Below the pieces are notes generated by a model. That model was not told the DNA's origin. It made no database searches and was given only the letters and a program-made list of their open reading frames with translations. From IMG/VR virus record IMGVR_UViG_3300010883_021039, positions 1 through 28,646 of that record: DNA of 28,646 nucleotides. One strand, 5' to 3'. Position numbers and translations under genes: made by a program. This document shows, piece after piece, positions 1-28,339 of this stretch. This stretch comes from a virus. Position 1 is the first letter of the stretch; every line of letters starts with the position of its first letter.

Positions 1-262
1 CCTGCGGGTCCAGCGGGTCCAGCTACACTAGAGTCAGCTCCCGTTGGTCCAGCAGACCCCGTCGGTCCAGCGGACCCCGTCGGTCCAGCGGACCCCGTCG
101 GTCCAGTTGATCCTGCGGGTCCAGCGGGTCCAGCTACGCTAGAGTCGGCTCCAGTAGGTCCGGTGACACCAGTAGGTCCAGCAGACCCAGTTGACCCAGT
201 TGATCCGGTCGATCCGGTCGATCCAGTAGGCCCAGTTGATCCCGTAGGACCACCTTCGCCCA
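1..262. repeat. Tandem repeats encoding Gly-X-Y triplets
   Basis: Nested repeats lie within the fibre gene. Positions 1-41 recur almost exactly at 112-152, a period of about 111 bp. Between them an 18-bp unit encoding G-S-A-G-P-T recurs about three times (57-110). At about 184-230 a 9-bp unit encoding G-S-T is repeated. Third-codon-position differences between copies show that the array has diverged. Slippage or recombination here would change fibre length in whole triplets. Confidence 0.85.
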
Positions 263-1235
263 CTATAGACGCCGTTACAACAACCGCGTCAGAATCGCTT
301 AGAGAAAAACCTGAAGAATTAGAAACCCAAACTATATTAAAAACTCCATAATCGCTCGACTTACTATCGTAGCCCGTAATCTTAAATAAAACCCAATTGT
401 CCGTGTCTCCTTCTTGTATAATGTTTATATAAGACTTGGTGGAGGCTGCTGAAGAAATAACCCATTGATTATATTTTTCATATGCTGAATTAGATGCAGA
501 ATCCGTACCATCGACAGCTATTTTGGTTACCGCAGCTACCGAAGCTGAATTAGCAGTACCATTTAGTCTAACTTTGCCCGCACTAGGGTCCGCCATTGTC
601 GTCGTATTGTCAAAGCTATAAATTATGTTTATTGCGTCAGATATGCCCGTTACCCCCATTGCGCCCGTAGACCCTGTGGCTCCAGCAGGACCGTCGCTTC
701 CCGCCGTGCCCGTTGCTCCGACAGCTCCAGTAGGTCCCGCTCCTCCTGCGGGCTGAAAAGCGACATATAAAACAGCCTCGTTCGAAAACGCGCTCCCGCT
801 AGAAGAGACAAAAGTTACCCCAACCTTTTTAAAACCAGAAACGTCAGTCACAGAAGCGACCTTAAAAACTACATGATTAGAAGTATCGTATTGTGGATGA
901 ATTTTAATCCTAGGACTAGCTGTAGCAGAGACGCTATCGTCTAAGGCGTCCAGCCAAGCGCTAACGCTCGAAGACTCATAGCTAGTTGTATTAAAATAAA
1001 TGTAAGTAACAGAAGAAAAAGAGCTATTGTTAAACCTTAAATCTCCAGAACCTGGGTCAGCTTCCGTAGTATAAGAGTCGAATCTAAACAACTGATTGTC
1101 ACCCCCAAGGGGTCCAGAGAACCCCGTTGGTCCCGTTGGTCCAGTATAGCCATCTGCGCCCCTTATTCCGGCAGAAGTAATATCTACTCCAGCAGTTGGG
1201 TTAACTCCAGATACTACAATTTCAATTTCTGCCAT
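1..1235 (-). CDS. Collagen-like phage fibre protein (partial, C-terminus beyond left edge)
   Basis: An uninterrupted minus-strand reading frame runs from ATG at 1235 ([13 protein letters not shown]) off the left edge, about 411 codons. It has three Gly-X-Y tracts: a short one near residues 25-45, a middle one at about 650-750 and a long one covering about 1-262. The long tract is dominated by G-P-T, G-S-T, G-S-A and G-P-A triplets and is broken by GADSSV. Between the tracts lie Ser/Thr/Tyr-rich segments that look like beta-structured fibre domains. Collagen-like triple helices are common in phage tail fibres, and this gene closes the structural block, so an adsorption fibre is the best call. 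Thr often fills the third triplet position, the residue glycosylated in Bacillus BclA. The receptor-binding end is not visible. Collagen-like fibre is well supported; tail location is inferred. Confidence 0.86.
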
Positions 1236-9051: not shown

Positions 9052-9058
9052 GTAATGT

Positions 9059-14890: not shown

Positions 14891-15574
14891 TTAATAAATG
14901 TCTATCTTATTTTTAGCTATGGCCCTTTTCACCTTTTCTATGATCGATTTTTTTATGTTTTTTATATGTTTATAACCTGGCGTCCTATTCGTTTCAGAGG
15001 TCGTATAATTCATTATCTTCGCTACTTCATCTTCGGACTTATTTTCGATGTATAACAACTTATATATTTTCCATTCTAGCGGTTTTAAAATGCCTTCCAT
15101 TGCGCCGTGGAGCTTCTCTATGTTGGATTCTAGATTCATACTATTCTGAAGTTCCGAGCTAGAGATTACATTACTATGGAACTCTAATGAAGACGCCGTT
15201 TTCAAATTGTACGCGGGCTCCTTGGTAGCTTCCCATTTTGCATAGAGAGGGCAATCGTTGCTTTGTTTCTCGTAAATTAAACAAAGGTTTTCTCCCTCGG
15301 AAGCTTCGCATCTATAGCACGGCTTTGAAACGTTAGCGTAATTATTTCTTATTAAATTTTTAATTTGATTTGCTATTATCGCGTTTAACCAAGGCCCAAT
15401 AGGTTTTTTTTGGTCGTACAAATGCCACTTCTTGTATATGTGGATTCTTATGATCTGAGATACGTCATCGAAGTCTAACCAGGAAAGCGATTTAAGGTTC
15501 CACTTGGGTTTCCTCTTGATTATTTCCTTGTCGATAACTTCTATGAAGTCTTCGAATTTTTTAGGTTCCGCCAT
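14891..15574 (-). CDS. Divergent phage sigma factor with four-Cys insert
   Basis: 227 aa. Residues 30-85 resemble sigma70 region 2 of the small ECF/phage type: 'SWLDFDDVSQIIRIHIYKKWHLYDQKKPIGPWLNAIIANQIKNL' (split over positions 31-74), with the core helix and -10-recognition helix. A four-Cys insert follows (Cys86, 89, 98, 108: CX2C-X8-C-X9-C), probably a zinc site. Residues 160-215 look like region 4: 'LKPLEWKIYKLLYIENKSEDEVAKIM' plus a basic recognition helix. It would redirect host RNA polymerase to phage, probably late, promoters. The start overlaps the zinc-ribbon gene by 14 bp. Sigma identity is likely; the zinc insert is unusual. Confidence 0.78.
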   Translation of the reverse strand: MAEPKKFEDFIEVIDKEIIKRKPKWNLKSLSWLDFDDVSQIIRIHIYKKWHLYDQKKPIGPWLNAIIANQIKNLIRNNYANVSKPCYRCEASEGENLCLIYEKQSNDCPLYAKWEATKEPAYNLKTASSLEFHSNVISSSELQNSMNLESNIEKLHGAMEGILKPLEWKIYKLLYIENKSEDEVAKIMNYTTSETNRTPGYKHIKNIKKSIIEKVKRAIAKNKIDIY

Positions 15575-16272: not shown

Positions 16273-17394
16273 ATGGGGCAACCTAAAAAAATAGCTCTTT
16301 GCTGCATTGTTAGAGACGAAGAAAAGGTCATAGGAAGACTACTAAAGTCCGTTGCTCCCCTAATTGACTTCGCTGTTATAGTCGATACTGGCTCCATAGA
16401 TAATACAGAAAAGGTAGCGATAAAAGCCCTAGAAGAGATTAATGTACCGTACGAATTTTCGCATGAAGAATGGAGAGACTTTTCTTACAATAGAAATATC
16501 GCGCTAGAAAAGCTTAGAAGCTATAGAGATATAGATTACTGCTTCACAATTGACGCTGACGAGGTTCTTTCTATAAAAACAGAGTTTGACTCGGAGAGCT
16601 TTAAAGAGTCGCTTACAAAGGACCTGTATCATGTAGAAACTCTTTTTAAAGATACTCTGTATAGCAGGACCTTGCTATTCAGTAACAAGAAAAAATTCTA
16701 CTACAAAGGAGTACTACATGAATTTGTAAGCTGTGACGAGAAGTTCTCCAAAGGAAAAGCTCGCGGAATAAAAGTCATAGTAAATACGGACGGGAAGAGG
16801 AGTATGGATGAAAATAAATTCGAAAAAGACTCTAAACTGCTAGAAGAGACGCTCAAAAAAGAAAAGGACCCCCACATGGTTTCTAGATACACATTTTATC
16901 TAGCTCAATCATATAGAGATTGCGGTAATCTGGTCAAAGCTATAGAGAGCTATAAAAAAAGAACAACTCTAGGATTCTTTGAGCAGGAAATTTTTGAGTC
17001 TTTATATAACATAACGAAAGCTAAGGCAAAACTAAATTACCCAATCGAGGAGGTCGTTGACGCTGGCCTTAAAGCCTACTCTTTTAAGCCCGAAAGAATA
17101 GAGCCTATGCATGAAATAGTTAAATACTGTAGGCTAAGGGAGCAGTTTAATTTGGGGTATTTTTTGGGGAAAGAATATATTGACTTCTCTCATCCAGAAG
17201 AGGCTCTATTTAAAATACACTGGGTCTATGATTGGGGTTTTTGGGACGAAGTCGCCGTTTGCGCTTTCTATTCCGACAAAAAAAGTTACGCAATCGACTT
17301 ATGGAAGAGGGCCCTGAACAATAAAATCAAGATGCCTGACGCTGAGATAGATCGAATCAACAAAAATATAGATTGCGCTATTAAAAACGAGTAG
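16273..17394 (+). CDS. GT2 glycosyltransferase with C-terminal TPR-like region
   Basis: 373 aa. The N-terminal GT-A domain has 'IALCCIVRDEEKVIGRLLKS' (7-26), 'VIVDTGSIDNTE' (35-46) and a metal-binding 'IDADEV' (93-98). This is the SunS/GT2 pattern found in enzymes that put sugars on peptides and in several viral transferases. From about residue 205 the sequence turns into helical repeats ('MVSRYTFYLAQSYRDCGNLVKAIESYKKR', split) resembling TPRs, which often bind the protein acceptor. It is convergent with phoH, one base apart, and transcribed against the sugar operon. It could glycosylate a phage or host protein with sugars made by that operon. The enzyme class is secure; the acceptor is inferred. 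Confidence 0.85.
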   Translation: MGQPKKIALCCIVRDEEKVIGRLLKSVAPLIDFAVIVDTGSIDNTEKVAIKALEEINVPYEFSHEEWRDFSYNRNIALEKLRSYRDIDYCFTIDADEVLSIKTEFDSESFKESLTKDLYHVETLFKDTLYSRTLLFSNKKKFYYKGVLHEFVSCDEKFSKGKARGIKVIVNTDGKRSMDENKFEKDSKLLEETLKKEKDPHMVSRYTFYLAQSYRDCGNLVKAIESYKKRTTLGFFEQEIFESLYNITKAKAKLNYPIEEVVDAGLKAYSFKPERIEPMHEIVKYCRLREQFNLGYFLGKEYIDFSHPEEALFKIHWVYDWGFWDEVAVCAFYSDKKSYAIDLWKRALNNKIKMPDAEIDRINKNIDCAIKNE

Positions 17395-17395
17395 T

Positions 17396-18172
17396 CTACT
17401 TTACATTTTTTAATTTTTTAGTTAAGAACTTGACTAGCTCAGAACGCATAATGTCGTCTTCATCAAACTCGAAAACCCTAATTCCCATTTCCTTACTTTC
17501 GTCATTCGAGAAAACTTTAGTTATTTTTTCAAACGCGTGAGCCTTGTCCTCATGTTTCAAATCGGTCTGCATAGGGTCCGCTAAAACGAAACATCTACTT
17601 CCCTCCCCCATTCGAGTTAGCACGGTTATGATTTCTTTTGTAGTTGAGTTTTGGGCCTCATCTAAGATTATGCATTTTGCAGCCCAATTCATACCTCTCG
17701 CAAAGTTGACGGGGAACATGGATATTCTTCCCTCCTCTTCTAATTTCGAGATACGATTATTTACAAGCAACTCTTCAAGCTTATCCAAGAAGGGTAAATT
17801 AAAGAATCTTAGTTTCTCCTCCGCGCTGCCTGGAAGATACCCCAAACTTTTATCCGAGCTTTCCACTGCTGATCTAAGATACATTATATCGGAGATAGCC
17901 TTCATGTTCAAGAGTTGAAGTCCGCAATAGACAGAGAGTATTGTCTTGGCGGTTCCCGCTGGGCCGTTGACGAAAACAACTTTCGTTTTCCGGTCTAGAG
18001 CTATCTTAAAGAATTCCTTTTGTTTATCAGTCCAATTAAGTTGATTTATTTTTATCTGCCTTTTAATCGGATTGGGGTTTTCGAAAGGCGATTCAAGGGA
18101 GTCTTGGATTTCTCGAAGGGTTTCTTCTTTTATTTCGGCTCTTGATTCAGCCTTTCCATGCGTTTTGCCCAT
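17396..18172 (-). CDS. phoH: PhoH-like ATPase
   Basis: 258 aa. Walker A GPAGTAKT (70-77), 'MYLRSAVESSDKSLGYLPGSAEEK' (97-120, the RPxVxxGxxxGFLPG equivalent), Walker B 'CIILDEAQN' (167-175) and 'VLADPMQTDL' mark the PhoH family (cytoplasmic P-loop NTPase, RNA- or nucleotide-linked function unsettled). PhoH genes are frequent in marine phages. The N-terminus MGKTHGKAES shares THGKAES with the small protein at 1622-2023. The gene lies 19 bp downstream of rmlB and is probably the last gene of the sugar operon. Confidence 0.9.
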   Translation of the reverse strand: MGKTHGKAESRAEIKEETLREIQDSLESPFENPNPIKRQIKINQLNWTDKQKEFFKIALDRKTKVVFVNGPAGTAKTILSVYCGLQLLNMKAISDIMYLRSAVESSDKSLGYLPGSAEEKLRFFNLPFLDKLEELLVNNRISKLEEEGRISMFPVNFARGMNWAAKCIILDEAQNSTTKEIITVLTRMGEGSRCFVLADPMQTDLKHEDKAHAFEKITKVFSNDESKEMGIRVFEFDEDDIMRSELVKFLTKKLKNVK

Positions 18173-18191: not shown

Positions 18192-19145
18192 CTAAGGCTT
18201 GCTATATTTTTTTTTGTAAAAAGTAACGGTTTTCTCCAATCCGCTCAAAAAGGTATAATTGGCCCCCCACCGAAGCTCTTGTTTGATTTTAGACGCGTCA
18301 ATCGCGTACCTAAAGTCGTGACCCGCTCTATCTTTTACGAAATTTATGGATTCATGGGCTCGTTTACCCATTATAGCGCATATGCAAGATATTACTTGAA
18401 GATTTGACCTTTCGTTGCTTGACCCCACAAGGTACGTTTCGCCAATTTTCCCGTTGACCAAAATCGACCAAATCGCGTCACAGTGATCGTCTACATAAAT
18501 CCAATCTCTTATGTTTTCTCCGCCACCATAAACGGGGACCAAATCTTCGTTAACCAAGTTCCTTATAATAGTGGGGATCAACTTCTCGTCATGCTGGTTT
18601 GGTCCGTAGTTGTTGCTACAATTAGAAATGGTAGCTCTTACCCCATGAGTATGCACATACGACCTTACCAAGAAATCAGAGGCAGCTTTGGTTGCTGAGT
18701 ATGGATTCTTTGGGTCATAACGCGAGTCTTCAGTAAATTTTTCGTCGCCCAAAACTTCTCCATATACTTCGTCAGTAGAAATATGATGCAGCCTAATGCC
18801 CCTATCCTTACAAGTCTCTAAGATAGAATGGGTGGCGACGATGTTGGACTCGACGAAAACCCTCGACCCTTTAATTGAGTTGTCTACGTGAGTCTCTGCT
18901 GCAAAATGGACGACGTCGGTAATATCTTTATTTTTGCATGTTTCCCAAAGTCTACCGTAATCAGACAAACAAAAATTCTCATGAGAATATATTGGGCTTT
19001 CTTCAAACTCTTCAGTATTGTCTGGACTAGCAGCGTAGGTCATTTTGTCCACGTTAACCAAACTTTCTACTCTAGGACTCCTCAAGGCTAGCTTTATAAA
19101 ATTCGACCCTATAAAACCGCAACCGCCTGTCACCAATAAGTTCAT
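18192..19145 (-). CDS. rmlB: dTDP-glucose 4,6-dehydratase
   Basis: 317 aa extended SDR. It converts dTDP-glucose to dTDP-4-keto-6-deoxyglucose using bound NAD. The Rossmann motif is TGGCGFIGSN (6-15). The catalytic Thr-Asp-Glu lies in 'HISTDEVYGE' (Thr124, Asp125, Glu126), and YSATK carries Tyr149 and Lys153. 'NCSNNYGPNQHDEKLIPT' and 'YGGGENIRDWIYVDDHCDA' are standard RmlB segments. The protein is slightly shorter than typical RmlB (about 340-360). The 4-keto product is the branch point for the epimerase/reductase and the aminotransferase encoded upstream in the same operon. A 34-bp gap separates it from the GT2 gene. Confidence 0.93.
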   Translation of the reverse strand: MNLLVTGGCGFIGSNFIKLALRSPRVESLVNVDKMTYAASPDNTEEFEESPIYSHENFCLSDYGRLWETCKNKDITDVVHFAAETHVDNSIKGSRVFVESNIVATHSILETCKDRGIRLHHISTDEVYGEVLGDEKFTEDSRYDPKNPYSATKAASDFLVRSYVHTHGVRATISNCSNNYGPNQHDEKLIPTIIRNLVNEDLVPVYGGGENIRDWIYVDDHCDAIWSILVNGKIGETYLVGSSNERSNLQVISCICAIMGKRAHESINFVKDRAGHDFRYAIDASKIKQELRWGANYTFLSGLEKTVTFYKKKYSKP

Positions 19146-19179
19146 TTTATATATTAGTCTTTTCCGCCAAAAAGATCAA

Positions 19180-19980
19180 TTAAATATCCGTTGGAACATA
19201 TCTAGCGTCTTGGCTATCCCATTGTATGTTCCCTAGTTGTCCCTTCCAGAAAGCTTTGTATTGGCCGATAATTCCATTAAATTGACAATTGCCCCATTTA
19301 CGATCCATTATCAGATACAAATCGGCGTCTAAATTTGCCGTCTTAGGATAGTTAAATAATATCTCCTCCTCGATAGCCTTAGCTCTTCTCCAAGAGACCA
19401 TAGAAGAATCACAACAGTTATAGAGATGAGTGTTTTCGGGCCGACAATTTAACGAATTGTCTGGAGTATGATTAAATTTTTCATAGCTTAGGCCACTATT
19501 GCCCTCCGCCCATTCTCCTTGAGAAAGCTCTGACTTACCTCCCTCAATGGGGTTATATACAATAAGCCTACAGTAAGAATGATTAGCTCCTAGGTTATTT
19601 GTAAAAAAAGCATTTAAATCCGAAAGATAATTTCTAGTTACTCCATCATCGTCACAAAGCATTATGCATACATCTGCATTAGATGAGGACATCGCCTCGT
19701 TAGCAAACTTACCTATAACCGCGTCCCCCCTCTCTTTTTTTTCTTCAAGAGTGTCTCCGGTTTTAAATATCTTTACGTTGGCTTTTTTGCTTGAAAGCTC
19801 GGGGTTGTCCGAATAAAATTTCTCTAGAATTTCATCTGAGTTTTGTTCGCTACTATCGTCAATGATGGATAACTCCCAATTATCATAGTTGGATTCAAAA
19901 ACAGTCTTTAAGGCCATTCGGCTTACTAGGACTGGTCTATCGTAGTAAAAAAGAATGATTTGTATCTTTAAATTTTTCAT
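19180..19980 (-). CDS. GT2-type glycosyltransferase
   Basis: 266 aa GT-A fold. 'KIQIILFYYDRP' opens the fold, with 'WELSIIDDSSEQNSDE' (35-50) for nucleotide binding and 'VCIMLCDDDGVTRNYL' (104-119) holding the metal-binding DDD at 110-112. 'SSMVSWRRAKAIEE' and 'DADLYLIMDRKW' fit the acceptor half. There is no membrane segment, so it is a soluble cytoplasmic transferase. It lies 6 bp after the SDR gene within the operon and probably adds one of the pathway's deoxysugars. Donor and acceptor are unknown. Confidence 0.84.
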   Translation of the reverse strand: MKNLKIQIILFYYDRPVLVSRMALKTVFESNYDNWELSIIDDSSEQNSDEILEKFYSDNPELSSKKANVKIFKTGDTLEEKKERGDAVIGKFANEAMSSSNADVCIMLCDDDGVTRNYLSDLNAFFTNNLGANHSYCRLIVYNPIEGGKSELSQGEWAEGNSGLSYEKFNHTPDNSLNCRPENTHLYNCCDSSMVSWRRAKAIEEEILFNYPKTANLDADLYLIMDRKWGNCQFNGIIGQYKAFWKGQLGNIQWDSQDARYVPTDI

Positions 19981-19986
19981 ATTTTT

Positions 19987-20709
19987 TTAAACCGTCCCGC
20001 TGTCAACATAAATATTTTGCCCAGTAATAGTCAAGGACTCGTCAGAGCATAAGAAAAACGCAGTACTGCTCACGGACTTCATACTAGTCTCTTTGCCAAG
20101 ACAAGTTCGTTTATAAATTTTATTTTTTTGCTCTTCGGTAAGAGTTTGACTCATGTCTGTTTCCATAAACCCTGGCACAACGCAGTTAAATCTTATCCCC
20201 TTGGGTCCCCATTCTCTAGCTAGGTTCTTCGAGTGAGCCTCTAGGGCTCCTTTAGTGCTAGCGTACATAGAGAGTCCCTTGTATCCCGTTAGAGAGCTGA
20301 CCGAAGATATAAAAACAAAGCTGCCTTTAACTTGATTGTACAACATATTCCTTATTAAATGCCTGTTAATCATTATGGGAGAAAGGACATTGACTTTATA
20401 CATTTTCTCCAAAGTGGAGTAATTGACGTTTGTGACAATGTCGTCATACGCTATCGCTGCATTATGCACGACTGCATGTATGGGAGTTTTATTGGGAATG
20501 AAGGACTTAAAGAGCCCCTCTTTCAAATCTTCTACTTCGGATAGGTCAAAGCATTTATGCTGGAAACGGGAAGAGATTATTTTTAGATTCCGAACGCTCT
20601 CAGTCTCCGAGCGAGAAACGGTAAATACTCGCCAACCTTCACTTAAGAATTTATTGACTAGACTTAGCCCAAGCCCCCTAGAGCCACCAGTTATAAAAAC
20701 GTTTTTCAT
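19987..20709 (-). CDS. SDR, FabG-like 3-oxoacyl-ACP reductase
   Basis: 240 aa classical SDR. Cofactor motif TGGSRGLG (7-14), NAA at 83-85, catalytic Ser near 136-139, Tyr149 and Lys153 (YASTK), and a typical ending 'ITGQNIYVDSGTV'. All catalytic residues are present and length is typical. The start overlaps the stop of the ligase gene by ATGA, so the two are translationally coupled. With an ACP and an acyl-activating ligase adjacent, reduction of a 3-oxoacyl-ACP to 3-hydroxyacyl-ACP is the best guess. Reduction of a keto-sugar cannot be excluded. Confidence 0.85.
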   Translation of the reverse strand: MKNVFITGGSRGLGLSLVNKFLSEGWRVFTVSRSETESVRNLKIISSRFQHKCFDLSEVEDLKEGLFKSFIPNKTPIHAVVHNAAIAYDDIVTNVNYSTLEKMYKVNVLSPIMINRHLIRNMLYNQVKGSFVFISSVSSLTGYKGLSMYASTKGALEAHSKNLAREWGPKGIRFNCVVPGFMETDMSQTLTEEQKNKIYKRTCLGKETSMKSVSSTAFFLCSDESLTITGQNIYVDSGTV

Positions 20710-21785
20710 ACGATAGTCTTAAGATTGTCAGAGATTTTTAATTTTTCAATAAAATTTATTATCCTTGGCGTCTGGTAGCTTTCCAGCTTCTCGTTCTTAA
20801 AATGCTGTTTAACTTCTTTTTCGGTAATCGACAGGTCTTCTTTTATAATGTCGCATACTAATACGTTTCCTAATAAAGAACTAGTTTTTTCATAAACTAT
20901 CGCGTCTCTTATTCTTTCGCTACCCTTAAGAAGGTTTTCTATTTCCGTAGGGTTGACGTCGTTTCCGGCAATATTAATTATATTTTTTCTCCTTCCGACA
21001 AAGCGAAAATTGCTCTCGCCAACTAGTTCTACTGAATCCCCTGTGTCGCACCACTCCCCAGACCTGTCTTTCACATAGAGAACGTCGTCAACGACCTTAC
21101 ATTTTTGACTGAGGGTAAAAACGTCACTGCTAGAGTACAAGACTGACCCCGCCTCCGTTAGCGCGTAAATGTTCGTGATTTTAGCATTAGGAAACATTTG
21201 CTTTACGAGTCTGAAAGTCCGCGAGTCGGCCCTTTCCCCTCCTACCGTAGCCCTAACGACGCTTCTGTAAGATTCCTCAAAGGGGGATAGAAGCTTGTAG
21301 AACGTGGGTGTACTGGAGATATGCGTGACTTCGAATTTTTTTATAGCGTTCAATATGTATTCGCGATTTCCCTTGTACGCATAAATGATGGTGTCACCGT
21401 TTATCAATGCTTGAAGAAGAACTTGGATTCCACCCATGTGAAATGGATTGTACGTATAAAGCCAAGTATTATCTTTCGTAGCTTTTTTGGTGTCTGCAAG
21501 CAGATCAGATATTTTATGCTTTACGGTTTTCCTTTCGCCCGTGGTTCCAGACGTTTGGAGGAAAATGGTGGATTCGGATTCGGATATCCTTTTCAATAAC
21601 TCCTCTTTGGAGGATATTGTACTTCCAATAAGCTTGCTGTCTCCCCTGTAAGAGGCTAAATTAATCTCCTTACCATTCACTATATCTCTAGTAAAAGAAC
21701 ATAGTAGATGAGGATTGACTCCATGATTCAAATCTGAGATTAAGGAATCATAGGAAATTTTCAGACTTTCATCTATTAAAAACAT
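20706..21785 (-). CDS. Adenylate-forming acyl ligase (ANL superfamily), short form
   Basis: 359 aa. The P-loop is 'LQTSGTTGERKTVKH' (76-90). 'TNIYALTEAGSVLYSS' is the A5 motif, 'WCDTGDSVELV' A7 and 'FRFVGRRKNIINIAGNDVNPTEIE' A8, and a terminal Lys in 'KISDNLKTIV' fits the A10 lysine. The enzyme should form an acyl-adenylate from a free acid and pass the acyl group to a thiol, here probably the adjacent ACP. It is shorter than the usual 500 or more residues because the N-terminal subdomain before the P-loop is only about 75 residues, as in other stand-alone ACP-loading ligases. It abuts acpS upstream and overlaps the SDR gene. The acid substrate is unknown. Confidence 0.87.
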   Translation of the reverse strand: MFLIDESLKISYDSLISDLNHGVNPHLLCSFTRDIVNGKEINLASYRGDSKLIGSTISSKEELLKRISESESTIFLQTSGTTGERKTVKHKISDLLADTKKATKDNTWLYTYNPFHMGGIQVLLQALINGDTIIYAYKGNREYILNAIKKFEVTHISSTPTFYKLLSPFEESYRSVVRATVGGERADSRTFRLVKQMFPNAKITNIYALTEAGSVLYSSSDVFTLSQKCKVVDDVLYVKDRSGEWCDTGDSVELVGESNFRFVGRRKNIINIAGNDVNPTEIENLLKGSERIRDAIVYEKTSSLLGNVLVCDIIKEDLSITEKEVKQHFKNEKLESYQTPRIINFIEKLKISDNLKTIV

Positions 21786-22172
21786 TTATTTTAATTCAAT
21801 GACAGATACCGCTGTGGCGTAATCAGTACAGTGAGATAATGAAACGTGGCATGTATACTTGTCCATTTTGTCTGCGGTTTCACCCCTAAAAAAAACAATG
21901 GGCTTGCCTTGTTCGTCATTAGACACATCAATATCTTTCCAAGCGAGGTTTCCTGGTATTTTCGCGGACCATAGCTGGACACCAAGAGCTTTGGCTATCG
22001 CTTCTTTCGCTGCGAATCTTACAGCGTAATGCTCGGAAGAGTTATCATATTTTTCGCAATATTCCTTTTCTCTATCTGTAAAAATTTTGTTTAGAAATTT
22101 GTCGCCATGTTCTCGCTTTATATTCTCTATGCGAGATATCTTTATTATATCTGTGCCGATTCCTGCGATCAT
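21786..22172 (-). CDS. acpS: Holo-[acyl-carrier-protein] synthase
   Basis: 128 aa. 'IGTDIIKISRIE' (5-16, with the Mg-binding Asp8) and 'RFAAKEAIAKALG' (52-64, with Glu57) are the two AcpS signatures. 'HVSLSHCTDYATAVSVIE' closes the fold. The enzyme transfers 4'-phosphopantetheine from CoA to a Ser of ACP. Length matches bacterial AcpS. It abuts both the ACP gene and the ligase gene, so it probably activates the phage's own carrier protein. Finding it in a phage is uncommon. Confidence 0.92.
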   Translation of the reverse strand: MIAGIGTDIIKISRIENIKREHGDKFLNKIFTDREKEYCEKYDNSSEHYAVRFAAKEAIAKALGVQLWSAKIPGNLAWKDIDVSNDEQGKPIVFFRGETADKMDKYTCHVSLSHCTDYATAVSVIELK

Positions 22173-22415
22173 TTAAGTTAGTCTGTTTATTATTTCGCTT
22201 ACTGTCTCGGGTATACTGTCCTCAAAAACATCTAGGTCAAATCTCGTTTCAATTCTAACTGCTAGCTCTGCTAAGGCTAGGGAGTCTAATCCCAAATCTT
22301 GCCTGAGGTTAGATTCGTTGTTAATTATAATTTCGGACGTCCGAACCACGTCTTGATTACTGACCGTAGTTTTGACTATCTCACGAACGGCTTTTTCAAT
22401 TTCATCTTTGTTCAT
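22173..22415 (-). CDS. Acyl carrier protein
   Basis: 80 aa, helical, acidic. 'DLGLDSLALAELAVRIE' (40-56) holds the phosphopantetheine Ser45 in the DSL motif, and 'FDLDVFEDSIPETVSEI' forms the usual third and fourth helices. It overlaps the stop of the acyltransferase gene by ATGA and abuts acpS, so it is a dedicated carrier between the ligase, the SDR and the acyltransferase. It differs from housekeeping ACP in the segment before the Ser, so it is likely a specialised pathway copy. Confidence 0.93.
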   Translation of the reverse strand: MNKDEIEKAVREIVKTTVSNQDVVRTSEIIINNESNLRQDLGLDSLALAELAVRIETRFDLDVFEDSIPETVSEIINRLT

Positions 22416-22996
22416 TTTCGCAATGTCGATTTGATGGACGCCATGATTTTTAATAAATGTTTTTTTCTGTGTTTGATCCTCTTTGCTGGACTACCGAAAT
22501 AAACGCCCCATTCTTCTAAATCTCTAGTGACTAGAGACATAGCTCCCACAGAACACCCTCGCCCGATATTAGAACCAGGCAGTATTGCTGTTCCCGTACC
22601 GATTATTACGTGCTCCCCTAAAGTAACTAATTCGGGACACAGTTTTCTAAATTCTTGAGGTACTGTCGGGTTTGTTAAATGTTCGCCCGTATAATCATCA
22701 GAAGAAGAATAGATCGTGACTCCCGCTGCTAGACCACAATAATTTTCCACGACAATTCCTCCTGAGCAAGAGAAGTAGCATCTTGCGCTGACATGAATGT
22801 AGTTTCCTAGTTTTAGGAATCCGCTAGCAGCAATGATATAAACTCCGCCATCTATTTGTACGTTATCACCAATAGAAATGTTTTCAGGCCCAATGATCGT
22901 ACAATTCTTAGCGATTTTGACATTTTCTCCCACTGCCTTGAATCCAAATTCAAGTAGCTCTTCAGAAAAATAATATCCATTTTCAAATACATTCAT
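22412..22996 (-). CDS. Hexapeptide-repeat acyltransferase
   Basis: 194 aa left-handed beta-helix protein. Imperfect hexapeptides run from about 22 to 165 ('ENVKIAKNCTIIGPENISIG', then 'VVENYCGLAAGVTIYSSSDDY' split, 'GEHVIIGTGTAILPGSNIG' and 'GCSVGAMSLVTRDLE'). The 'SSDDYTGEHLTNPTVP' loop and 'WGVYFGSPAKRIK' end are standard in sugar acyltransferases of O-antigen clusters. It lies between the sugar aminotransferase gene and the ACP gene. N-acylation of the 4-amino sugar with an ACP-bound acyl group is therefore the best reading. O-acetylation is the alternative. Confidence 0.88.
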   Translation of the reverse strand: MNVFENGYYFSEELLEFGFKAVGENVKIAKNCTIIGPENISIGDNVQIDGGVYIIAASGFLKLGNYIHVSARCYFSCSGGIVVENYCGLAAGVTIYSSSDDYTGEHLTNPTVPQEFRKLCPELVTLGEHVIIGTGTAILPGSNIGRGCSVGAMSLVTRDLEEWGVYFGSPAKRIKHRKKHLLKIMASIKSTLRK

Positions 22997-23003
22997 GATC
23001 GTG

Positions 23004-24125
23004 CTACCACCCCTTCTTAATCGAGTCTACTATATGCGCTCTTTCTTCATGAGTGATCCACCAACCCACAGGTATAGAGATCAGCCTTGTCGTTATTTTG
23101 TCCAAAGCCGGAAGATGACTTTTGAACTCTTTCACACAAGAATGTATATCGTTTCTCTCATGGACTTGACTAACCATAATACCGCACTCTTTCATATGCA
23201 TCATGAAGTCGTCTTTTCTATCGACCAAAAGGCTATAAATCCAAAAGCAGGACTCCGACCCCTCGCTTCTTTTCGCTAGCTCTACTCCGTCAACGTTTAG
23301 AAGTTCGTTATCGTAGAAACTGGCATTATCCTTGTGAAGAGCGATGTTCGTGTCTACCTCTTTAAGATTCTCGATTCCTATTGCAGCAGCTATATCATTC
23401 ATATGGAACTTGTATCCCCATTCAGAAATATCGGCCTCGCACCTAAAGTCTTTCTTGTTATTGTCTCTGTCAATACCGTACCACCTTAGCAACTTGGCTC
23501 TTCTGTGGTATTCGTTGTCAGGACTGACCAGCATCCCTCCATCGCCAGTAGTTAGGTGCTTAATGGCTTGAAAACTAAACGTACAGAAGTTTCCATGACT
23601 TCCGATACGCTTTCCCTTATACGAACTACCTATAGCGTGAGCGCAATCCTCGATGACGATAGGCTTAAATCCATACAAAGACTTTGTCTTGTCAATTATT
23701 TTTTTGACTCGATCCAAATCTACAGGATAACCGCCCCAATGAACTAGGAAGATTACTTTAGTCGAGCGGGTAATTTTTCTTTCCAAATCGTCTAGGTCCA
23801 TGTTGAAGTTGCTAGGGTCAACATCCACCCACTTGATTTTTAGATTATTAGCTAGGATCGGCCAATTTGTCGCTGTACATGTAAGGGGCGTAGCCAAAAC
23901 CTCGTCCCCATCATTTACTCCGTGTTTCTTCACTAACCGTAAAGCTAGATGTTCCGCCGAGGTCGCAGCATTGGTAGTAGCTACATAGTCGCTCTCCACA
24001 TATTCTTTCAATAATTCTTCGAAGGCTTCGACCACAGGGCCTTGGCCAATAAATCCGCTGTCCAAGACCTTACTGACGGCCTTGTTAGCTGCCTCCGCCA
24101 TAAATACTTTAAATAAGGGTATCAC
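23004..24125 (-). CDS. DegT/DnrJ/EryC1-family sugar aminotransferase
   Basis: 373 aa from GTG 24125, which overlaps the upstream stop (GTGA) and gives the usual family start MIPLFK; a TTG at 24143 is possible. PLP motifs: 'ATTNAATSAEHLAL' for phosphate binding, 'VIEDCAHAIGSSYKGKRIGS' with the Asp that contacts the pyridine nitrogen, and 'FCTFSFQAIKHLTTGDGGML' with the Schiff-base Lys. The family transaminates keto-sugar nucleotides. With RmlB in the operon the likely substrate is dTDP-4-keto-6-deoxyglucose, giving a 4-amino-4,6-dideoxyhexose (viosamine or thomosamine type). Which epimer is formed cannot be read from sequence. Confidence 0.91.
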   Translation of the reverse strand: MIPLFKVFMAEAANKAVSKVLDSGFIGQGPVVEAFEELLKEYVESDYVATTNAATSAEHLALRLVKKHGVNDGDEVLATPLTCTATNWPILANNLKIKWVDVDPSNFNMDLDDLERKITRSTKVIFLVHWGGYPVDLDRVKKIIDKTKSLYGFKPIVIEDCAHAIGSSYKGKRIGSHGNFCTFSFQAIKHLTTGDGGMLVSPDNEYHRRAKLLRWYGIDRDNNKKDFRCEADISEWGYKFHMNDIAAAIGIENLKEVDTNIALHKDNASFYDNELLNVDGVELAKRSEGSESCFWIYSLLVDRKDDFMMHMKECGIMVSQVHERNDIHSCVKEFKSHLPALDKITTRLISIPVGWWITHEERAHIVDSIKKGW

Positions 24126-25000
24126 GATACTTTTGGTTCCCAATTTTTGATAGAGTCTATTATGGCTTCTTCTGCCGACCGAATCCCGACTCCTGCATTT
24201 CTTAATTTAGAATTGTCTAAAATACAGCTAGACCTTGGGGCCTTCGCCCCAATTTGGTAAAGCTCCTCCTCTCCCTTGAGAAAGACATAGTCTTTATCCA
24301 CCCCAGTGATTTCCTTAATCTTCTCCACGACAAACGAGGTGGTAATAAAACCAGTATTAACAACGTTATAAATACCGTAGTCCGCTTTCTTTTTGTACAA
24401 ATCTAAACAAGCTTCAACAAAGTCACTTAAATGAGAAACCGAATTCTCGGCCTCCAAAAGTCGATCATATTTCATCATCTTAGATAAATAATTACGAGGG
24501 CCGTCCTCGTTGTTGAACGGGATTCTTAATCTCCATACATAATGGTGATCACTGTTAAACTTAACCATCTGTTCGCCCTCAACTTTGGTTCCTGAATAGT
24601 AACTACAGTTTTTATGCTTGAAACTGAAGTTAGGCTCGTCTTCTTCGGTGAACCCCTTGTGGTCACCCTTGTCGCCCTGATAAATGCACCCTGACGAAAC
24701 GTGGCCCCAAGGAATGCCCATCATGGAGCACGCCATAGCTATGTTTTTGGGTAAATCGACATTAGCCTTCCAACACTCGCTCTTATTGTCCTCGCAAGCG
24801 TCAACGTTAGGTTTGCCCGTATAGCCAGCGCAGTTGATAAGAAAAGAGGGGTTGAATCTTTGAATATAATTAATCAAAGCTTCTAGGTCATAATAATCAA
24901 CAAGATCACGACCCACTTCGTGAAAGCCCATTTTCCTATTAGTTAACCCTTTCACGAACTCTCGCCCTACGTATCCAGTTGATCCTAACAATGTTATCAT
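24122..25000 (-). CDS. NRS/ER-like keto-sugar 3,5-epimerase/4-reductase (RmlD-related SDR)
   Basis: 292 aa extended SDR. Cofactor motif GSTGYVG (6-12), 'NCAGYTGKPNVDACE', 'HVSSGCIYQGDKG' with Cys105, and YSGTK with Tyr135 and Lys139. Several segments recall plant NRS/ER and mimivirus L780 rather than bacterial RmlD: 'GFTEEDEPNF', 'VWRLRIPFN', 'GPRNYLSKMMKYDRLLEAENSVSHL' (split), 'GIYNVVNTG' and 'KAPRSSCILDNSKL'. In that family a Cys at this position supports 3,5-epimerisation and the Tyr-Lys pair reduction, so one enzyme does the work of RmlC and RmlD. No separate RmlC is seen in the window. With RmlA and RmlB it would complete dTDP-L-rhamnose. The assignment rests on remembered sequence pattern. 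Confidence 0.8.
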   Translation of the reverse strand: MITLLGSTGYVGREFVKGLTNRKMGFHEVGRDLVDYYDLEALINYIQRFNPSFLINCAGYTGKPNVDACEDNKSECWKANVDLPKNIAMACSMMGIPWGHVSSGCIYQGDKGDHKGFTEEDEPNFSFKHKNCSYYSGTKVEGEQMVKFNSDHHYVWRLRIPFNNEDGPRNYLSKMMKYDRLLEAENSVSHLSDFVEACLDLYKKKADYGIYNVVNTGFITTSFVVEKIKEITGVDKDYVFLKGEEELYQIGAKAPRSSCILDNSKLRNAGVGIRSAEEAIIDSIKNWEPKVS

Positions 25001-25053
25001 TTTTTAAATTTCTCTCTTGGTCTTCGCGGTAAAACGATTGATAGATTTTATAC

Positions 25054-25962
25054 TTATCCTTCAATAAACTTATCCCTAGCCATCTCAAAGACGGAGTTGA
25101 ATTCGCCGTAATGCTTGTACCTATCATAGAAGGAATTAAACACCTCGTCAATTGCTCTATTTGAATGAAATTTTTCTTTTTTTATGAAAATGGTTTCGAA
25201 AGGGTCATAGGCTTGGTATCCCCTCTCATTTCTAACTTTTAATGCCTTTACTATTTCTTCTGGATTTGTGCCGAATAGAGTGAAGTACGGGAATTCTTTT
25301 GCGTTCACTAACTGCTCATCAGCAGTATTACTCCAATCTATCCCTTTTAGCCAATCTATACCCGAATAATGTGGATTAAAACAATCAATGTTATATCCAT
25401 TCTGTAATACGGCATTTGATAACCTTACTTCTTTTTTGAAGACCATCTCTGGCTTACTCATTTCATGGTCGTCCTTAATAAATACGCCCGACACTTTACC
25501 GATTTCCATTCCAACCTTATCTAAGCAGAAACACCACGACTGAACGTGAGGGAAAAAATCTCCTCCAAACCAAGGTATTAAAGAGGCTCCAAAAATTTTT
25601 GTTTTGTTATCTATTCTAGAGGTGAACAGTTCGTACCAAGGTCTACTTTTATCCCTTTGTGTTAGGAATGGCCCGCAAGAGGTCTCGTTCAGGAAAACGA
25701 AGTGACCATATTCTTCTTCCTTAAATGCGTCACTGTGAATTAGGTCGCTGTACCCTCCAAAGTCATAATTCTCATTTTCTCTATTCAAGAAATAGACATT
25801 TGGATAGTCTTTTGTTAATTCCTCTGGAATTAGATTCTCATTTCTATTAGAAACAAAGAAAAAATCACACTCTTCGCTTTTTATAAGACCACCACGCGTT
25901 AGAAAGAACTTTAAGTTTTCGTTCCAGTTATAGTAGTGATAGATTACGGCGGTTCTAGGCAT
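25054..25962 (-). CDS. Rhamnan-synthesis-F-like glycosyltransferase
   Basis: 302 aa. 'NYDFGGYSDLIHSDAF' and 'YGHFVFLNETSCGPFL' match the 'YDfGay...l' and 'y..i.f.N.S..GPf' pattern of RgpF-type and related surface-polysaccharide transferases. 'GASLIPWFGGDFFPHVQSWCFCLDKVG' (split) follows in the same order as in that family. There is no membrane helix. It overlaps rmlA by 8 bp. RgpF-type enzymes often transfer rhamnose, which agrees with the pathway encoded here, but donor and acceptor are inferred. Confidence 0.75.
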   Translation of the reverse strand: MPRTAVIYHYYNWNENLKFFLTRGGLIKSEECDFFFVSNRNENLIPEELTKDYPNVYFLNRENENYDFGGYSDLIHSDAFKEEEYGHFVFLNETSCGPFLTQRDKSRPWYELFTSRIDNKTKIFGASLIPWFGGDFFPHVQSWCFCLDKVGMEIGKVSGVFIKDDHEMSKPEMVFKKEVRLSNAVLQNGYNIDCFNPHYSGIDWLKGIDWSNTADEQLVNAKEFPYFTLFGTNPEEIVKALKVRNERGYQAYDPFETIFIKKEKFHSNRAIDEVFNSFYDRYKHYGEFNSVFEMARDKFIEG

Positions 25963-26818
25963 GCTGGTCCTTTAGTCTTTGTTTGTATTCGCACTCAGGC
26001 ATGGAGTTCATAATTTTCTTAAACTGAGTCTTGGATATGAGCTTTGATTTGTATGCTGCTGCTTCTGGACAGCCTATTTTGACCCCCTGACGGCGTTCAA
26101 TTACCGAAACGTATACGGAGGCTTCGTGGAGACTGCTTGAAGTACCCGAATCAAGCCAAGCACAGCCACGATTCATCTTGTAAACCATTAATTTTGATTT
26201 TTTTAAATAGAATTTAATGACGTCAGTGATTTCTAGCTCTCCTCGATCTGATGGCTTGAGGTTTTTTGTAATTTTTATCACATCCTTGTCAAAAAGGTAG
26301 ATACCTGGGATTGCAAATCTAGATTTTGGATTCTCAGGCTTCTCTTCGACAGATAGAGCCTTGCCCTTCGGGTCGAACTCTACTACTCCGTACCTTTCTG
26401 GGTCTGTAACTTCATAGGCGAAGATTGCGCCTCCCGATTTGAAGCTCTCAAACGCTTTTTTAAAGATACTTGCGTTGCTACATACGTTATCTCCTAATAT
26501 GAGGACTACTTTTTCATTTTTTATGAAATTTTCAGCAATTGTGAAGGCCTCTGGGATGCCCTTGGGTTCTTCTTGGGTTTTATACTCTATCTTAACGCCA
26601 AACCTAGAGCCGTTACCTATAATTTCTTTGAACTTAGGCGTGTGCTCTACTGACGAGATGATGCAAATGTCATTTACTCCATTTTCTATCAATGTCGATA
26701 GCGGGTAATAGATCATTGGCTTGTCGTATACGGGCAACAAGCTCTTTGGGTAGTTGTTTGTTAGCGGAAAAAGTCTAGAGCCAGCTCCTCCCGCTAGGAT
26801 AATGCCTTTTTTAATCAT
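25955..26818 (-). CDS. rmlA: Glucose-1-phosphate thymidylyltransferase
   Basis: 287 aa. 'GIILAGGAGSRLFPLT' (5-20) is the nucleotidyltransferase signature, with Ser in place of the common Thr (GSR for GTR). 'KSLLPVYDKPMIYYPLS', 'LILGDNV', 'YGVVEFDPKGKALSVEEKP', 'RFAIPGIYLFDKDVI', 'DRGELEITDV' and 'RGCAWLDSGT' follow as in RmlA. It makes dTDP-glucose from dTTP and glucose-1-phosphate. 'PKGIPEAF' replaces the more usual 'PxGLAQAF', a small departure in the sugar/base site. It overlaps both neighbours by 8 bp. Confidence 0.92.
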   Translation of the reverse strand: MIKKGIILAGGAGSRLFPLTNNYPKSLLPVYDKPMIYYPLSTLIENGVNDICIISSVEHTPKFKEIIGNGSRFGVKIEYKTQEEPKGIPEAFTIAENFIKNEKVVLILGDNVCSNASIFKKAFESFKSGGAIFAYEVTDPERYGVVEFDPKGKALSVEEKPENPKSRFAIPGIYLFDKDVIKITKNLKPSDRGELEITDVIKFYLKKSKLMVYKMNRGCAWLDSGTSSSLHEASVYVSVIERRQGVKIGCPEAAAYKSKLISKTQFKKIMNSMPECEYKQRLKDQHA

Positions 26819-27530
26819 CTTCGTTTATTTCTGGGATAATTATTGTTTGGTTTTTGCATTGAGCAAAGTAATCCATACCAGGCATTTGGGCGACCATTGT
26901 TTCTCCGTATCTTGACCCATTAAATCCTGAGAGCAAACAGGAAAAGGGGATTAAGTTCTCCGCTGGACCCCTTGCTTGGTCAATCATAGTTAGGTCCAAG
27001 TCATTTAATTCTTTACTTAACTTTTTGAACTCCTCGAAATGGTCTTTGCAGATTACCTGTAGGCTGGATTCTGGCCAGTTGTATTTGTTGCACAAGAAAG
27101 AAGTCCAACCGTCTTCTAGTTCATCAATAAATTTTCTTATCTTTGTTGAGATTAGGTACAGGTCAGACTCAACGTGAATTATTTTTTCAAAATTGAGCTT
27201 TTCTGCGATTTCTAAGGAGAAAAGGTAACTTCTCCACCATCCTGCCGAGTTTGCTGCTTGTCCGTCGCGATGAAGAGGGGACCGTTCATCAAAATGTATG
27301 AGATTTACTTTCTCTGTGTCGAATTTTGTGTCTTCGGATATGTCGCTCGCTTTAATTACGGCGAAATACTCTTCTTCAACGAAAGAAAGGTCTGAGCCGT
27401 CGTCAATCATTAAGATTGGGTCGTCCCTTGAGAGTTCTACGCTGCTGTAGTAAGCAGCCCATTTAGCGTATCTATGTTTATAGTCTGCCTCGTTGTCGAA
27501 ATGTGATGTGCAGAATAAGAAAGTCTTCAT
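26811..27530 (-). CDS. Glycosyltransferase-like protein, first gene of sugar operon
   Basis: 239 aa from ATG 27530 (MKTFLFCTSHFDN). A TTG at 27569 would lie inside the -35 box, so it is rejected. The pattern 'PILMIDDGSDLSFVEEE' and 'EKIIHVESDLYLIS', with an acidic ExD-type site, suggests a GT-A nucleotide-sugar transferase. The rest is unfamiliar. It is headed by a sigma70-like promoter whose -10 ends only 11 bp before the ATG, so the mRNA would be leaderless or nearly so; no ribosome site is visible. The stop overlaps the rmlA start by 8 bp. The transferase call is moderate. Confidence 0.68.
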   Translation of the reverse strand: MKTFLFCTSHFDNEADYKHRYAKWAAYYSSVELSRDDPILMIDDGSDLSFVEEEYFAVIKASDISEDTKFDTEKVNLIHFDERSPLHRDGQAANSAGWWRSYLFSLEIAEKLNFEKIIHVESDLYLISTKIRKFIDELEDGWTSFLCNKYNWPESSLQVICKDHFEEFKKLSKELNDLDLTMIDQARGPAENLIPFSCLLSGFNGSRYGETMVAQMPGMDYFAQCKNQTIIIPEINEDD

Positions 27531-27541
27531 ATGTATAGGGA

Positions 27542-27569
27542 AGTATATGAGAAGGAGCTGTAAAATCAA
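27542..27569 (-). promoter_or_regulatory. Sigma70-like promoter of the sugar operon
   Basis: Minus strand: TTGATT (27564-27569), 16-bp spacer, TATACT (27542-27547). Expected transcription start is about 27535, some five bases before ATG 27530. It resembles the second minus-strand promoter at 28120-28147 (same spacer length, same -10). The upstream stretch 27570-27695 holds no gene that I can support. Confidence 0.62.
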
Positions 27570-27695
27570 GGCAGTCTGGGTTTTTTTTGGCCGTGAAGTA
27601 TTTGTTTAATTATATTTGTATTCACTACTGGCAAATGGATAGGGAGTCTGGAGTCGGGCAAATATAAGCAGCCCCCCTCTCGGTACTATTACAAC

Positions 27696-28292: not shown

Positions 28293-28339
28293 GAACCCCG
28301 CGAAAATACCAGGAATTCTCGCGGGGGGTCTGGGGGGGG
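28293..28339. repeat. GC-rich hairpin repeat, copy 2
   Basis: Nearly identical to copy 1 over about 46 bp, with two C fewer in the left arm. The stem is 28296-28303 with 28319-28326, and the loop is identical. The sequence between the copies is unrelated and A-rich. The stretch 28140-28410 between genes holds these repeats and the DnaA-like sites; no gene was seen there. Confidence 0.8.

Follow-up and report, generated by a model that had tools for sequence, protein, structure and literature searches.

A probable phage glycan operon, constant at its ends and exchangeable in the middle, predicted to supply rhamnose and an N-acylated 4-amino sugar for a surface glycan

Twelve co-oriented minus-strand genes in the 28,646-nt stretch of DNA analysed here (the window) probably constitute a phage glycan operon whose ends stay the same while its central genes can be exchanged; judged from the sequence, they would supply a dTDP-rhamnose core together with dTDP-4-(3-hydroxyacylamino)-4,6-dideoxyglucose. 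The source is a tailed phage: the same contig encodes a terminase and capsid-type genes as well as PhoH and tubulin, which bears out the phage context of the sugar genes. The phage is uncultured and probably marine; no near relative was found among cultured phages, and no tRNA genes were found in the window. Window ORFs were assigned to families by Pfam and NCBIfam profile searches with curated cut-offs (Table 1).

ORF calling recovered all twelve genes of the original prediction between positions 18192 and 27530. Read in the order of transcription, the intergenic gaps measure -8, -8, +53, -22, +7, -4, 0, 0, -4, +6 and +34 nt (range -22 to +53), with 4-nt overlaps and zero gaps among the junctions. 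The first gene most likely starts at the ATG at 27530. A promoter-like site lies upstream at 28147-28120 in a scan no richer in such sites than shuffled sequences. The prediction had named key residues whose loss would undermine it, and all of them are retained: the catalytic aminotransferase Lys (in SFQAIKH), the ACP Ser (in DSL), and the RmlB motifs TDE and YSATK.

Table 1. Features of the glycan operon and its surroundings in the window
Feature	Position	Strand	Evidence
Collagen-like protein, GPT/GST repeats; speculative candidate glycan acceptor	3..1235	-	PF01391 E 9e-14
Further glycosyltransferase-like gene, just outside the twelve-gene span	16273..17394	+	PF00535 26.2 bits; same place in L002, L174, L165
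PhoH-like phage protein, context anchor adjoining RmlB	17396..18172	-	PF02562 E 9e-47; same neighbour in relatives
RmlB, dTDP-glucose 4,6-dehydratase	18192..19145	-	TIGR01181 equivalog 399.6 bits, above cut-off
GT2-family glycosyltransferase	19180..19980	-	PF00535 Glycos_transf_2, weak, 24.5 bits vs cut-off 23.3
FabG-like SDR, presumed 3-oxoacyl-ACP reductase	19987..20709	-	PF13561 E 5e-43; TIGR01830 E 5e-45, below cut-off
Short AMP-forming acyl ligase, presumed acyl-ACP loader	20706..21785	-	PF00501 E 1e-20 + PF13193
AcpS, holo-ACP synthase	21786..22172	-	TIGR00516 99 bits vs cut-off 59.8
Acyl carrier protein (ACP)	22173..22415	-	PF00550 E 7e-8; DSL serine at 44-46
AntD-like left-handed beta-helix sugar N-acyltransferase	22412..22996	-	Hexapeptide PF00132
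DegT/DnrJ/EryC1 sugar 4-aminotransferase, AtmS13/CalS13 subgroup, TTG start	23004..24143	-	PF01041 E 8e-83
NRS/ER-like dTDP-4-keto-6-deoxyglucose 3,5-epimerase/4-reductase	24122..25000	-	RmlD_sub_bind PF04321 E 3e-29
GT-A-like glycosyltransferase, RgpF-related, 302 aa	25054..25962	-	Relatives match PF05045 RgpF E 5e-7
RmlA, glucose-1-phosphate thymidylyltransferase	25955..26818	-	TIGR01207 359.7 bits, E 9e-108; conserved in lineage
Conserved protein, first operon gene, possible glycosyltransferase, 252 aa	26811..27530	-	76% identical counterpart, same place in L002/L025
12-bp hairpin terminator, upstream of operon	28296..28326	-	

RmlA, which retains the GDN, EKP and DSG motifs, scores just under the TIGR01207 cut-off of 360.65 bits. 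The NRS/ER-like enzyme is, by its sequence, closer to NRS/ER than to RmlD: its best solved relatives are the 3,5-epimerase/4-reductase 4qqr (E 3e-30) and the UDP-rhamnose synthase 7jid (E 5e-20), with RmlD 1vl0 trailing at E 2e-13. C105, Y135, K139, and K174 align with C115, Y144, K148, and K183 of 4qqr, of which Cys115 and Lys183 are the epimerase-site residues, so that the Cys, the Lys, and the YxxxK motif are all kept. No match to a separate RmlC 3,5-epimerase or cupin was found among the window ORFs scanned with Pfam, a difference from the canonical rmlABCD operon. Rhamnose genes also occur in a Shimia prophage, and Rhodobacteraceae prophages carry rfbABCD (PMC8224337); the latter use RmlC and RmlD where the window operon has the NRS/ER-like enzyme.

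The aminotransferase matches the solved structures 4xau/4zwv and CalS13 with E values of 1e-124 to 3e-116. Its product is probably the gluco sugar (Qui4N/viosamine) rather than the galacto form (Fuc4N), the one hint being the AntD-like partner. That acyltransferase has its best solved relatives in 3vbi-3vbp (E 1e-36, the runner-up family reaching E 4e-9), which we take to be AntD of anthrose biosynthesis and whose PDB name reads galactoside O-acetyltransferase; a literature search on these codes returned unrelated papers only. It is 55% identical to a Tritonibacter plasmid protein, and a bacterial scan with it yielded only three loci, none with an ACP or ligase and one with a MaoC-like hydratase beside the acyltransferase relative. 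AntD itself uses acyl-CoA; ACP as the acyl donor here is proposed from gene linkage.

The proteins of the acyl-carrier cassette resemble those of other phages. The ACP is 35-40% identical to the ACPs of other phage cassettes, AcpS is 57% identical to its counterpart in the 158-kb virus contig L338, and the ligase, with its TSGTTG motif and C-terminal Lys intact, is 35-38% identical to eight other phage ligases. The SDR shares 50-57% identity with the SDRs of other phage cassettes, compared with 35% for an Azospirillum copy; an alternative substrate is possible for this enzyme. From gene linkage, the acceptor of the ligase is presumed to be ACP rather than CoA. None of SDR, ligase, and ACP reaches the curated cut-off of a specific function, and the acyl group is therefore not fixed by sequence. 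Neither a KAS III domain, in whose place the ligase stands, nor any methyltransferase, such as the sugar-modifying VioM, was matched in the window ORFs scanned with Pfam. An IMG/VR scan with the single ligase sequence found nothing, whereas an alignment of phage ligases used as query found ten loci, so the earlier negative reflects a sensitivity limit. Two kinds of INPHARED record among the matches to AcpS and the ligase were set aside as phage precedents: MaAM05 has its locus among secDF, smc, scpAB, and glyS and looks bacterial, and the unannotated OR84xxxx records of Staphylococcus, Listeria, and Enterococcus appear to be host DNA. Literature searches, which covered only a minority of subscription journals, turned up no phage sugar-acylation cassette with an ACP.

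The three glycosyltransferases originally predicted fared unequally. The GT2 enzyme has a weak Pfam match and is conserved in the related contigs L002, L164, L169, and L003, whereas the other two have no Pfam match of their own and are weaker candidates than stated. A low-confidence model of the 302-amino acid protein (pLDDT 62) resembles almost only GT-A enzymes. The 252-amino acid protein has no Pfam or PHROG match, and its structure model (pLDDT 44) was too poor to serve as fold evidence.

In the pathway we propose, RmlA and RmlB would produce dTDP-4-keto-6-deoxyglucose. The NRS/ER-like enzyme would convert part of this to dTDP-L-rhamnose without RmlC, and the aminotransferase would convert the remainder to a dTDP-4-amino-4,6-dideoxyhexose, probably in the glucose form. 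The phage ACP would be armed by AcpS, its own or the host's, and loaded with a short acyl group by the AMP-forming ligase or by host FabH. The FabG-like SDR would reduce the 3-oxo group on the acyl-ACP, the AntD-like enzyme would move the resulting 3-hydroxyacyl group off ACP and onto the 4-amine of the sugar, and three or four glycosyltransferases would assemble a glycan of rhamnose and the acylamino sugar. We infer substrates, direction, and acyl identity; family and residue evidence supports the predicted logic of RmlA and RmlB followed by a rhamnose branch and an N-acylated 4-amino-sugar branch.

RmlA, the NRS/ER-like gene, and RmlB beside PhoH keep a fixed position in an uncultured phage lineage of at least 24 sequence clusters, where the trio brackets between 0 and about 10 variable sugar genes, in a layout like that of an O-antigen locus. 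Terminase, PhoH, and aminotransferase are 86, 83, and 82% identical, respectively, between L002/L025 and the window, and in L002 NeuB/NeuA-like genes occupy the place of the acyl cassette. The order acyltransferase-ACP-ligase-SDR recurs in seven further phage contigs, one of which is a phage of 334 kb that has a capsid gene of the T4 type, and an eighth distinct contig has ACP-ligase-SDR in order; an AcpS inside the cassette was seen in the window contig only. The earlier view that a whole pathway of this kind is rare in phages thus needs qualification: rhamnose trio and acyl cassette each recur, and special to the window is that the two are joined, with AcpS in addition. Nor was a bacterial island moved in as a whole, as had been suggested, since the rhamnose frame is lineage-wide, the aminotransferase is common to the nearest relatives, and the nearest matches of the acyl cassette are the cassettes of other phages.

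The likeness to viosamine and anthrose systems holds up. Among known pathways, the Pseudomonas syringae viosamine island is the best-described counterpart in function: its genes vioA, vioB, vioR, and acp underlie the acylated viosamine capping the rhamnose on flagellin, and the gene order of the island in pv. tabaci is vioA-vioM-vioT-vioS-vioB-vioR-acp (PMC3927599). This island and the flagellin glycosylation island of P. aeruginosa PAK share with the phage operon, as we read it, the dTDP-4-amino-4,6-dideoxyglucose route, an aminotransferase, an acyltransferase, a 3-oxoacyl-ACP reductase (here an SDR that is only FabG-like), and an own ACP; the sugar is joined to rhamnose in the Pseudomonas viosamine system and in our reading of the phage. 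The phage operon differs in itself encoding RmlA, RmlB, NRS/ER, the AMP-forming ligase, and AcpS, and in having neither KAS III (vioS), the source of the acyl chain in Pseudomonas, nor a methyltransferase (vioM). The Pseudomonas acceptor is flagellin, whereas for the phage glycan a collagen-like virion protein or the host surface is likeliest. Anthrose biosynthesis in the Bacillus cereus group (AntA-D) is matched by the AntD-like acyltransferase and, as a possible parallel, capped rhamnose chains on the collagen-like surface protein BclA (glycan, PMC7793302); unlike it, the phage has no AntA enoyl-CoA hydratase, no O-methylation gene was seen, and ACP rather than CoA is expected. Mimivirus likewise encodes rhamnose and viosamine routes (e.g. 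the L142 acetyltransferase), and its fibrils bear rhamnose and N-acetylviosamine (PMC10117803), but this unrelated virus uses UDP sugars and plain acetylation, whereas dTDP sugars and an ACP-linked acyl group are expected in the phage. On plasmid p3 of Azospirillum brasilense Sp7 (NZ_CP033315), the ACP, ligase, and SDR genes of a flagellin-side cassette run in the same order, with KAS III and flagellin after them; identity to the phage proteins is 27-35%, and no AntD-like gene lies beside this cassette. AntD-like, DegT, RmlA, and RmlB genes are contiguous in Ilyobacter. Flavobacterium phage immuto (NC_055915) has an aminotransferase of the same subgroup (51% identity), but its sugar locus is without the ACP/AcpS/ligase branch.

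As acceptor we lean slightly towards a protein on the virion surface, perhaps the collagen-like one, rather than the host envelope. It is a substantial possibility, if short of probable, that the same pathway is host-directed, its glycan staying out of the virion and instead remodelling the host envelope (O-antigen or capsule) during infection, so that superinfection is blocked or receptors are shed. Receptor-altering phages are well known, and the lineage has O-antigen-like gene content (RmlA/B, WbqC, LicD, GNAT, and DegT); yet the window's Pfam matches include neither Wzx/Wzy/Wzz nor a membrane acyltransferase of seroconverting phages, and collagen-like proteins, of a kind usual in virion fibres, are encoded in the lineage. 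That ACP, AcpS, ligase, and SDR are lipid or fatty-acid auxiliary genes standing beside sugar genes by chance seems improbable, even though FabG models give the SDR its best scores and Rhodobacteraceae prophages bear acpP/fabF/fabG as auxiliary genes (PMC8224337). We reject this role because of the linkage to the sugar acyltransferase: ACP-ligase-SDR directly follows the AntD-like gene in sugar loci of seven other phage contigs, and the nearest bacterial trio seen lies within a flagellin glycosylation island. An assembly chimera of a bacterial sugar cluster and a phage contig is very unlikely. The acyl cassette with AcpS, and its junctions with the flanking genes, are known from one contig only, but the phage genes on either side of the locus recur in L002/L025 (59-86% protein identity), which argues against the misassembly originally considered; GC content and codon use of the cassette match the phage genes, and its junctions are operon-style gaps of 6-7 nt. 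Phages are also known to glycosylate DNA (T-even phages are cited in PMC9614988). A supply of nucleotide sugars for hypermodified bases is nonetheless scarcely credible here, as the window's Pfam matches include no recognisable base-modifying enzyme and the glycan enzymes are of extracellular-polysaccharide type.

The phage glycan operon proposed here resembles bacterial O-antigen loci in combining a constant frame with a variable centre, and this suggests selection for diverse surfaces on phage particles or infected cells. Because part of the gene set recurs in unrelated phages, phages may swap cassettes to alter the sugar coat of the particle or infected cell. More tentatively, and with the balance just short of even, acyltransferase-ACP-ligase-SDR could be a module for N-acylating sugars from ACP that moves as a whole from the glycan locus of one phage to that of another, unrelated one; the lineage studied here would carry it as one of many cargoes of a rhamnose-framed, O-antigen-like locus giving variable coats ('phage serotypes'), and the added AcpS would have made the module host-independent in the window phage. 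If our reading is true, phages possess not just single glycosyltransferases but whole pathways to exotic acylated sugars, private acyl carrier included, that can be exchanged. The operon would then offer a handful of testable enzymes for sugar acylation that depends on ACP. It would also be a parallel of independent origin to two other coats, that of giant viruses with rhamnose and viosamine and that of Bacillus spores with collagen-like filaments capped by anthrose.

The virus record (28,646 bases, IMG/VR) carries phage genes clustered in the usual fashion on its minus strand (table), and the sugar operon immediately precedes PhoH in transcription order. This is the operon of the original prediction; its twelve genes are ordered u252 (the unassigned first gene)-RmlA-u302 (a probable glycosyltransferase)-NRS/ER-like-aminotransferase-AntD-like acyltransferase-ACP-AcpS-ligase-SDR-GT2-RmlB, with intergenic gaps of -8, -8, 53, -22, 7, -4, 0, 0, -4, 6 and 34 nt. 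A 12-bp hairpin with T residues after it lies upstream (28326-28296). In GC content and codon usage, the cassette genes fall inside the range of the window's phage genes. Many starts in 19180-27570 follow A-rich stretches without a clear Shine-Dalgarno, a pattern of Bacteroidota, and the closest aminotransferase from cultured phages is a Flavobacterium phage protein; both give only a hint of the host. Within the terminase lineage, 16 clusters encode the tubulin-family GTPase; the tubulins known from phages come mainly from large ones.

Features of the window outside the sugar operon
Feature	Coordinates	Strand	Remark
Collagen-like protein	3-1235	-	
Cement protein	3269-3820	-	
Tubulin/FtsZ-family GTPase	7888-9051	-	GGGTGSG motif intact
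Terminase large subunit	11023-12855	-	
ERCC4-type nuclease	12856-13803	-	
Sigma-70-like protein	14891-15574	-	
PhoH	17396-18172	-	

RmlB matches its equivalog model, and RmlA scores one bit under the cut-off of its own. The solved structures closest to the aminotransferase are 4xau/4zwv, which we take to be AtmS13, and CalS13 (E 1e-124 to 3e-116). The acyltransferase matches 3vbi-3vbp (E 1e-36, against 4e-9 for the next family); these entries have a generic PDB molecule name and are presumably AntD, the N-acyltransferase of anthrose biosynthesis. The reductase is nearer to plant 3,5-epimerase/4-reductase (4qqr) and UDP-rhamnose synthase 7jid than to RmlD and retains the four residues aligned with C115, Y144, K148 and K183 of 4qqr; no RmlC was found among the window ORFs scanned. 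Signature residues are intact in ACP, AcpS, ligase and SDR. Its relatives and a weak GT-A-like model place u302 close to RgpF (rhamnan synthesis F).

The observation holds, and the reading of these genes as a deoxysugar pathway with its own acyl-carrier branch is broadly right. The parts thought to be rare turn out to be a lineage-common locus, a recurrent phage cassette and an AcpS confined to the window. Our terminase searches located 264 related stretches in IMG/VR and no match above 30% identity among 50,697 cultured-phage records. At least 24 sequence clusters of the lineage have RmlB adjoining PhoH or no more than a few genes away, and in sufficiently long contigs RmlA and the NRS/ER-like gene mostly occupy the opposite side of the locus. 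Three members (L180, L201 and L176) have bare RmlA-NRS/ER-RmlB; others insert up to ∼10 genes (methyltransferases, GNAT and hexapeptide transferases, LicD, sulfotransferase, epimerase, glycosyltransferases). RmlB often has a WbqC-like gene nearby. L002/L025, the nearest relative (terminase 86%, PhoH 83%, aminotransferase 82%), shares the window's flanks, and between aminotransferase and GT2 it has, in place of the window's acyltransferase-ACP-AcpS-ligase-SDR genes, a differing ∼7-kb segment with putative NeuB-like (two), NeuA-like, dioxygenase, deacetylase-like, GT and GNAT genes. Across these relatives, then, the rhamnose core is constant and the centre swapped, the same layout as in bacterial O-antigen loci. 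L002 also has a 256-aa protein (8332-9102), absent from the window, between u302 and the NRS/ER-like gene, and L202:10985-13168 is a 727-aa GDP-mannose dehydratase ORF with an apparent intein-like insertion.

Searches with single sequences gave no second acyl cassette in the lineage. An alignment-based scan with the acyltransferase returned 74 viral loci, and L299, L314 (counted with its near-copy L313), L321, L324 and L333 have acyltransferase-ACP-ligase-SDR, the window order minus AcpS; the L333 acyltransferase ORF is shortened (143 aa). A later ligase-alignment scan added L347 and L348, as well as L342/L343 with ACP-ligase-SDR. Beyond the window, seven distinct contigs thus carry all four genes in this order and one carries the last three. 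The 334-kb L324 record encodes a T4-type gp23 capsid protein (E 8.5e-63), and therefore at least one cassette copy resides in a large T4-type phage. The window SDR is 50-57% identical to phage-cassette SDRs versus 35% to the Azospirillum SDR, and the ligase 35-38% versus 27%. We found no description of this recurrent cassette in the literature searched. A short DegT-like gene lies upstream of the cassette in these phages. Half-size DegT-like proteins close to the cassette (∼202-217 aa; L299:7341-7982, L324:7363-7992, L348:4066-4707 and equivalents) miss profile positions ∼98-162 and 246-360, and most copies keep a Lys in a GPYKHxKLSKGG motif.

AcpS within the cassette is particular to the window. 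Among viral sequences, its closest relative (57%) sits on L338, a 158-kb phage contig that likewise encodes an ACP-like ORF and has no sugar cassette beside AcpS. The ACP-like ORF and AcpS (1096-1377 and 8001-8378) are away from any acyltransferase; L338 also encodes ribonucleotide reductase and has small genes in common with L003. No credible cultured-phage record of AcpS or ligase was found; MW495066 118861-143235, named Microcystis phage MaAM05, looks bacterial (secDF, smc, scpAB, glyS).

Among bacteria, ACP-ligase-SDR-KAS III adjoins flagellin near a pseudaminic acid synthase gene in Azospirillum brasilense Sp7, and AntD-like, DegT, RmlA and RmlB genes are contiguous in Ilyobacter. A Roseburia MAG has a MaoC-like hydratase gene directly after its AntD-like gene (L254:8001-8965); such a hydratase is another source of 3-hydroxyacyl groups. 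P. syringae makes N-(3-hydroxybutyryl) viosamine with seven genes, among them vioA, vioB, vioR, vioS and acp; this sugar caps flagellin rhamnose and is lost without vioR (PMC3927599). Apart from KAS III and the methyltransferase, the phage set has a counterpart for each of these steps, with ligase and AcpS in addition.

RmlA and RmlB would produce dTDP-4-keto-6-deoxyglucose, which the NRS/ER-like enzyme would convert to dTDP-L-rhamnose and the aminotransferase to a dTDP-4-amino sugar. ACP would be armed by AcpS and loaded with a short acid by the ligase, or by host FabH; SDR reduction would give a 3-hydroxyacyl chain, and the AntD-like enzyme would acylate the 4-amine. Strong family identity supports the predicted RmlA, RmlB, AcpS, aminotransferase-class and acyltransferase-class steps; gene linkage suggests ACP as donor, the 3-hydroxyacyl group and the Qui4N configuration. 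As to the acceptor, BclA of Bacillus spores is collagen-like. BclA bears a rhamnose-anthrose glycan (PMC7793302), and mimivirus fibrils carry rhamnose and N-acetylviosamine (PMC10117803). Modification of the host envelope is nearly as likely a role for the phage glycan, but we slightly favour the virion as its acceptor since collagen-like proteins with GPT-type repeats are encoded both here and in the relatives of this contig.
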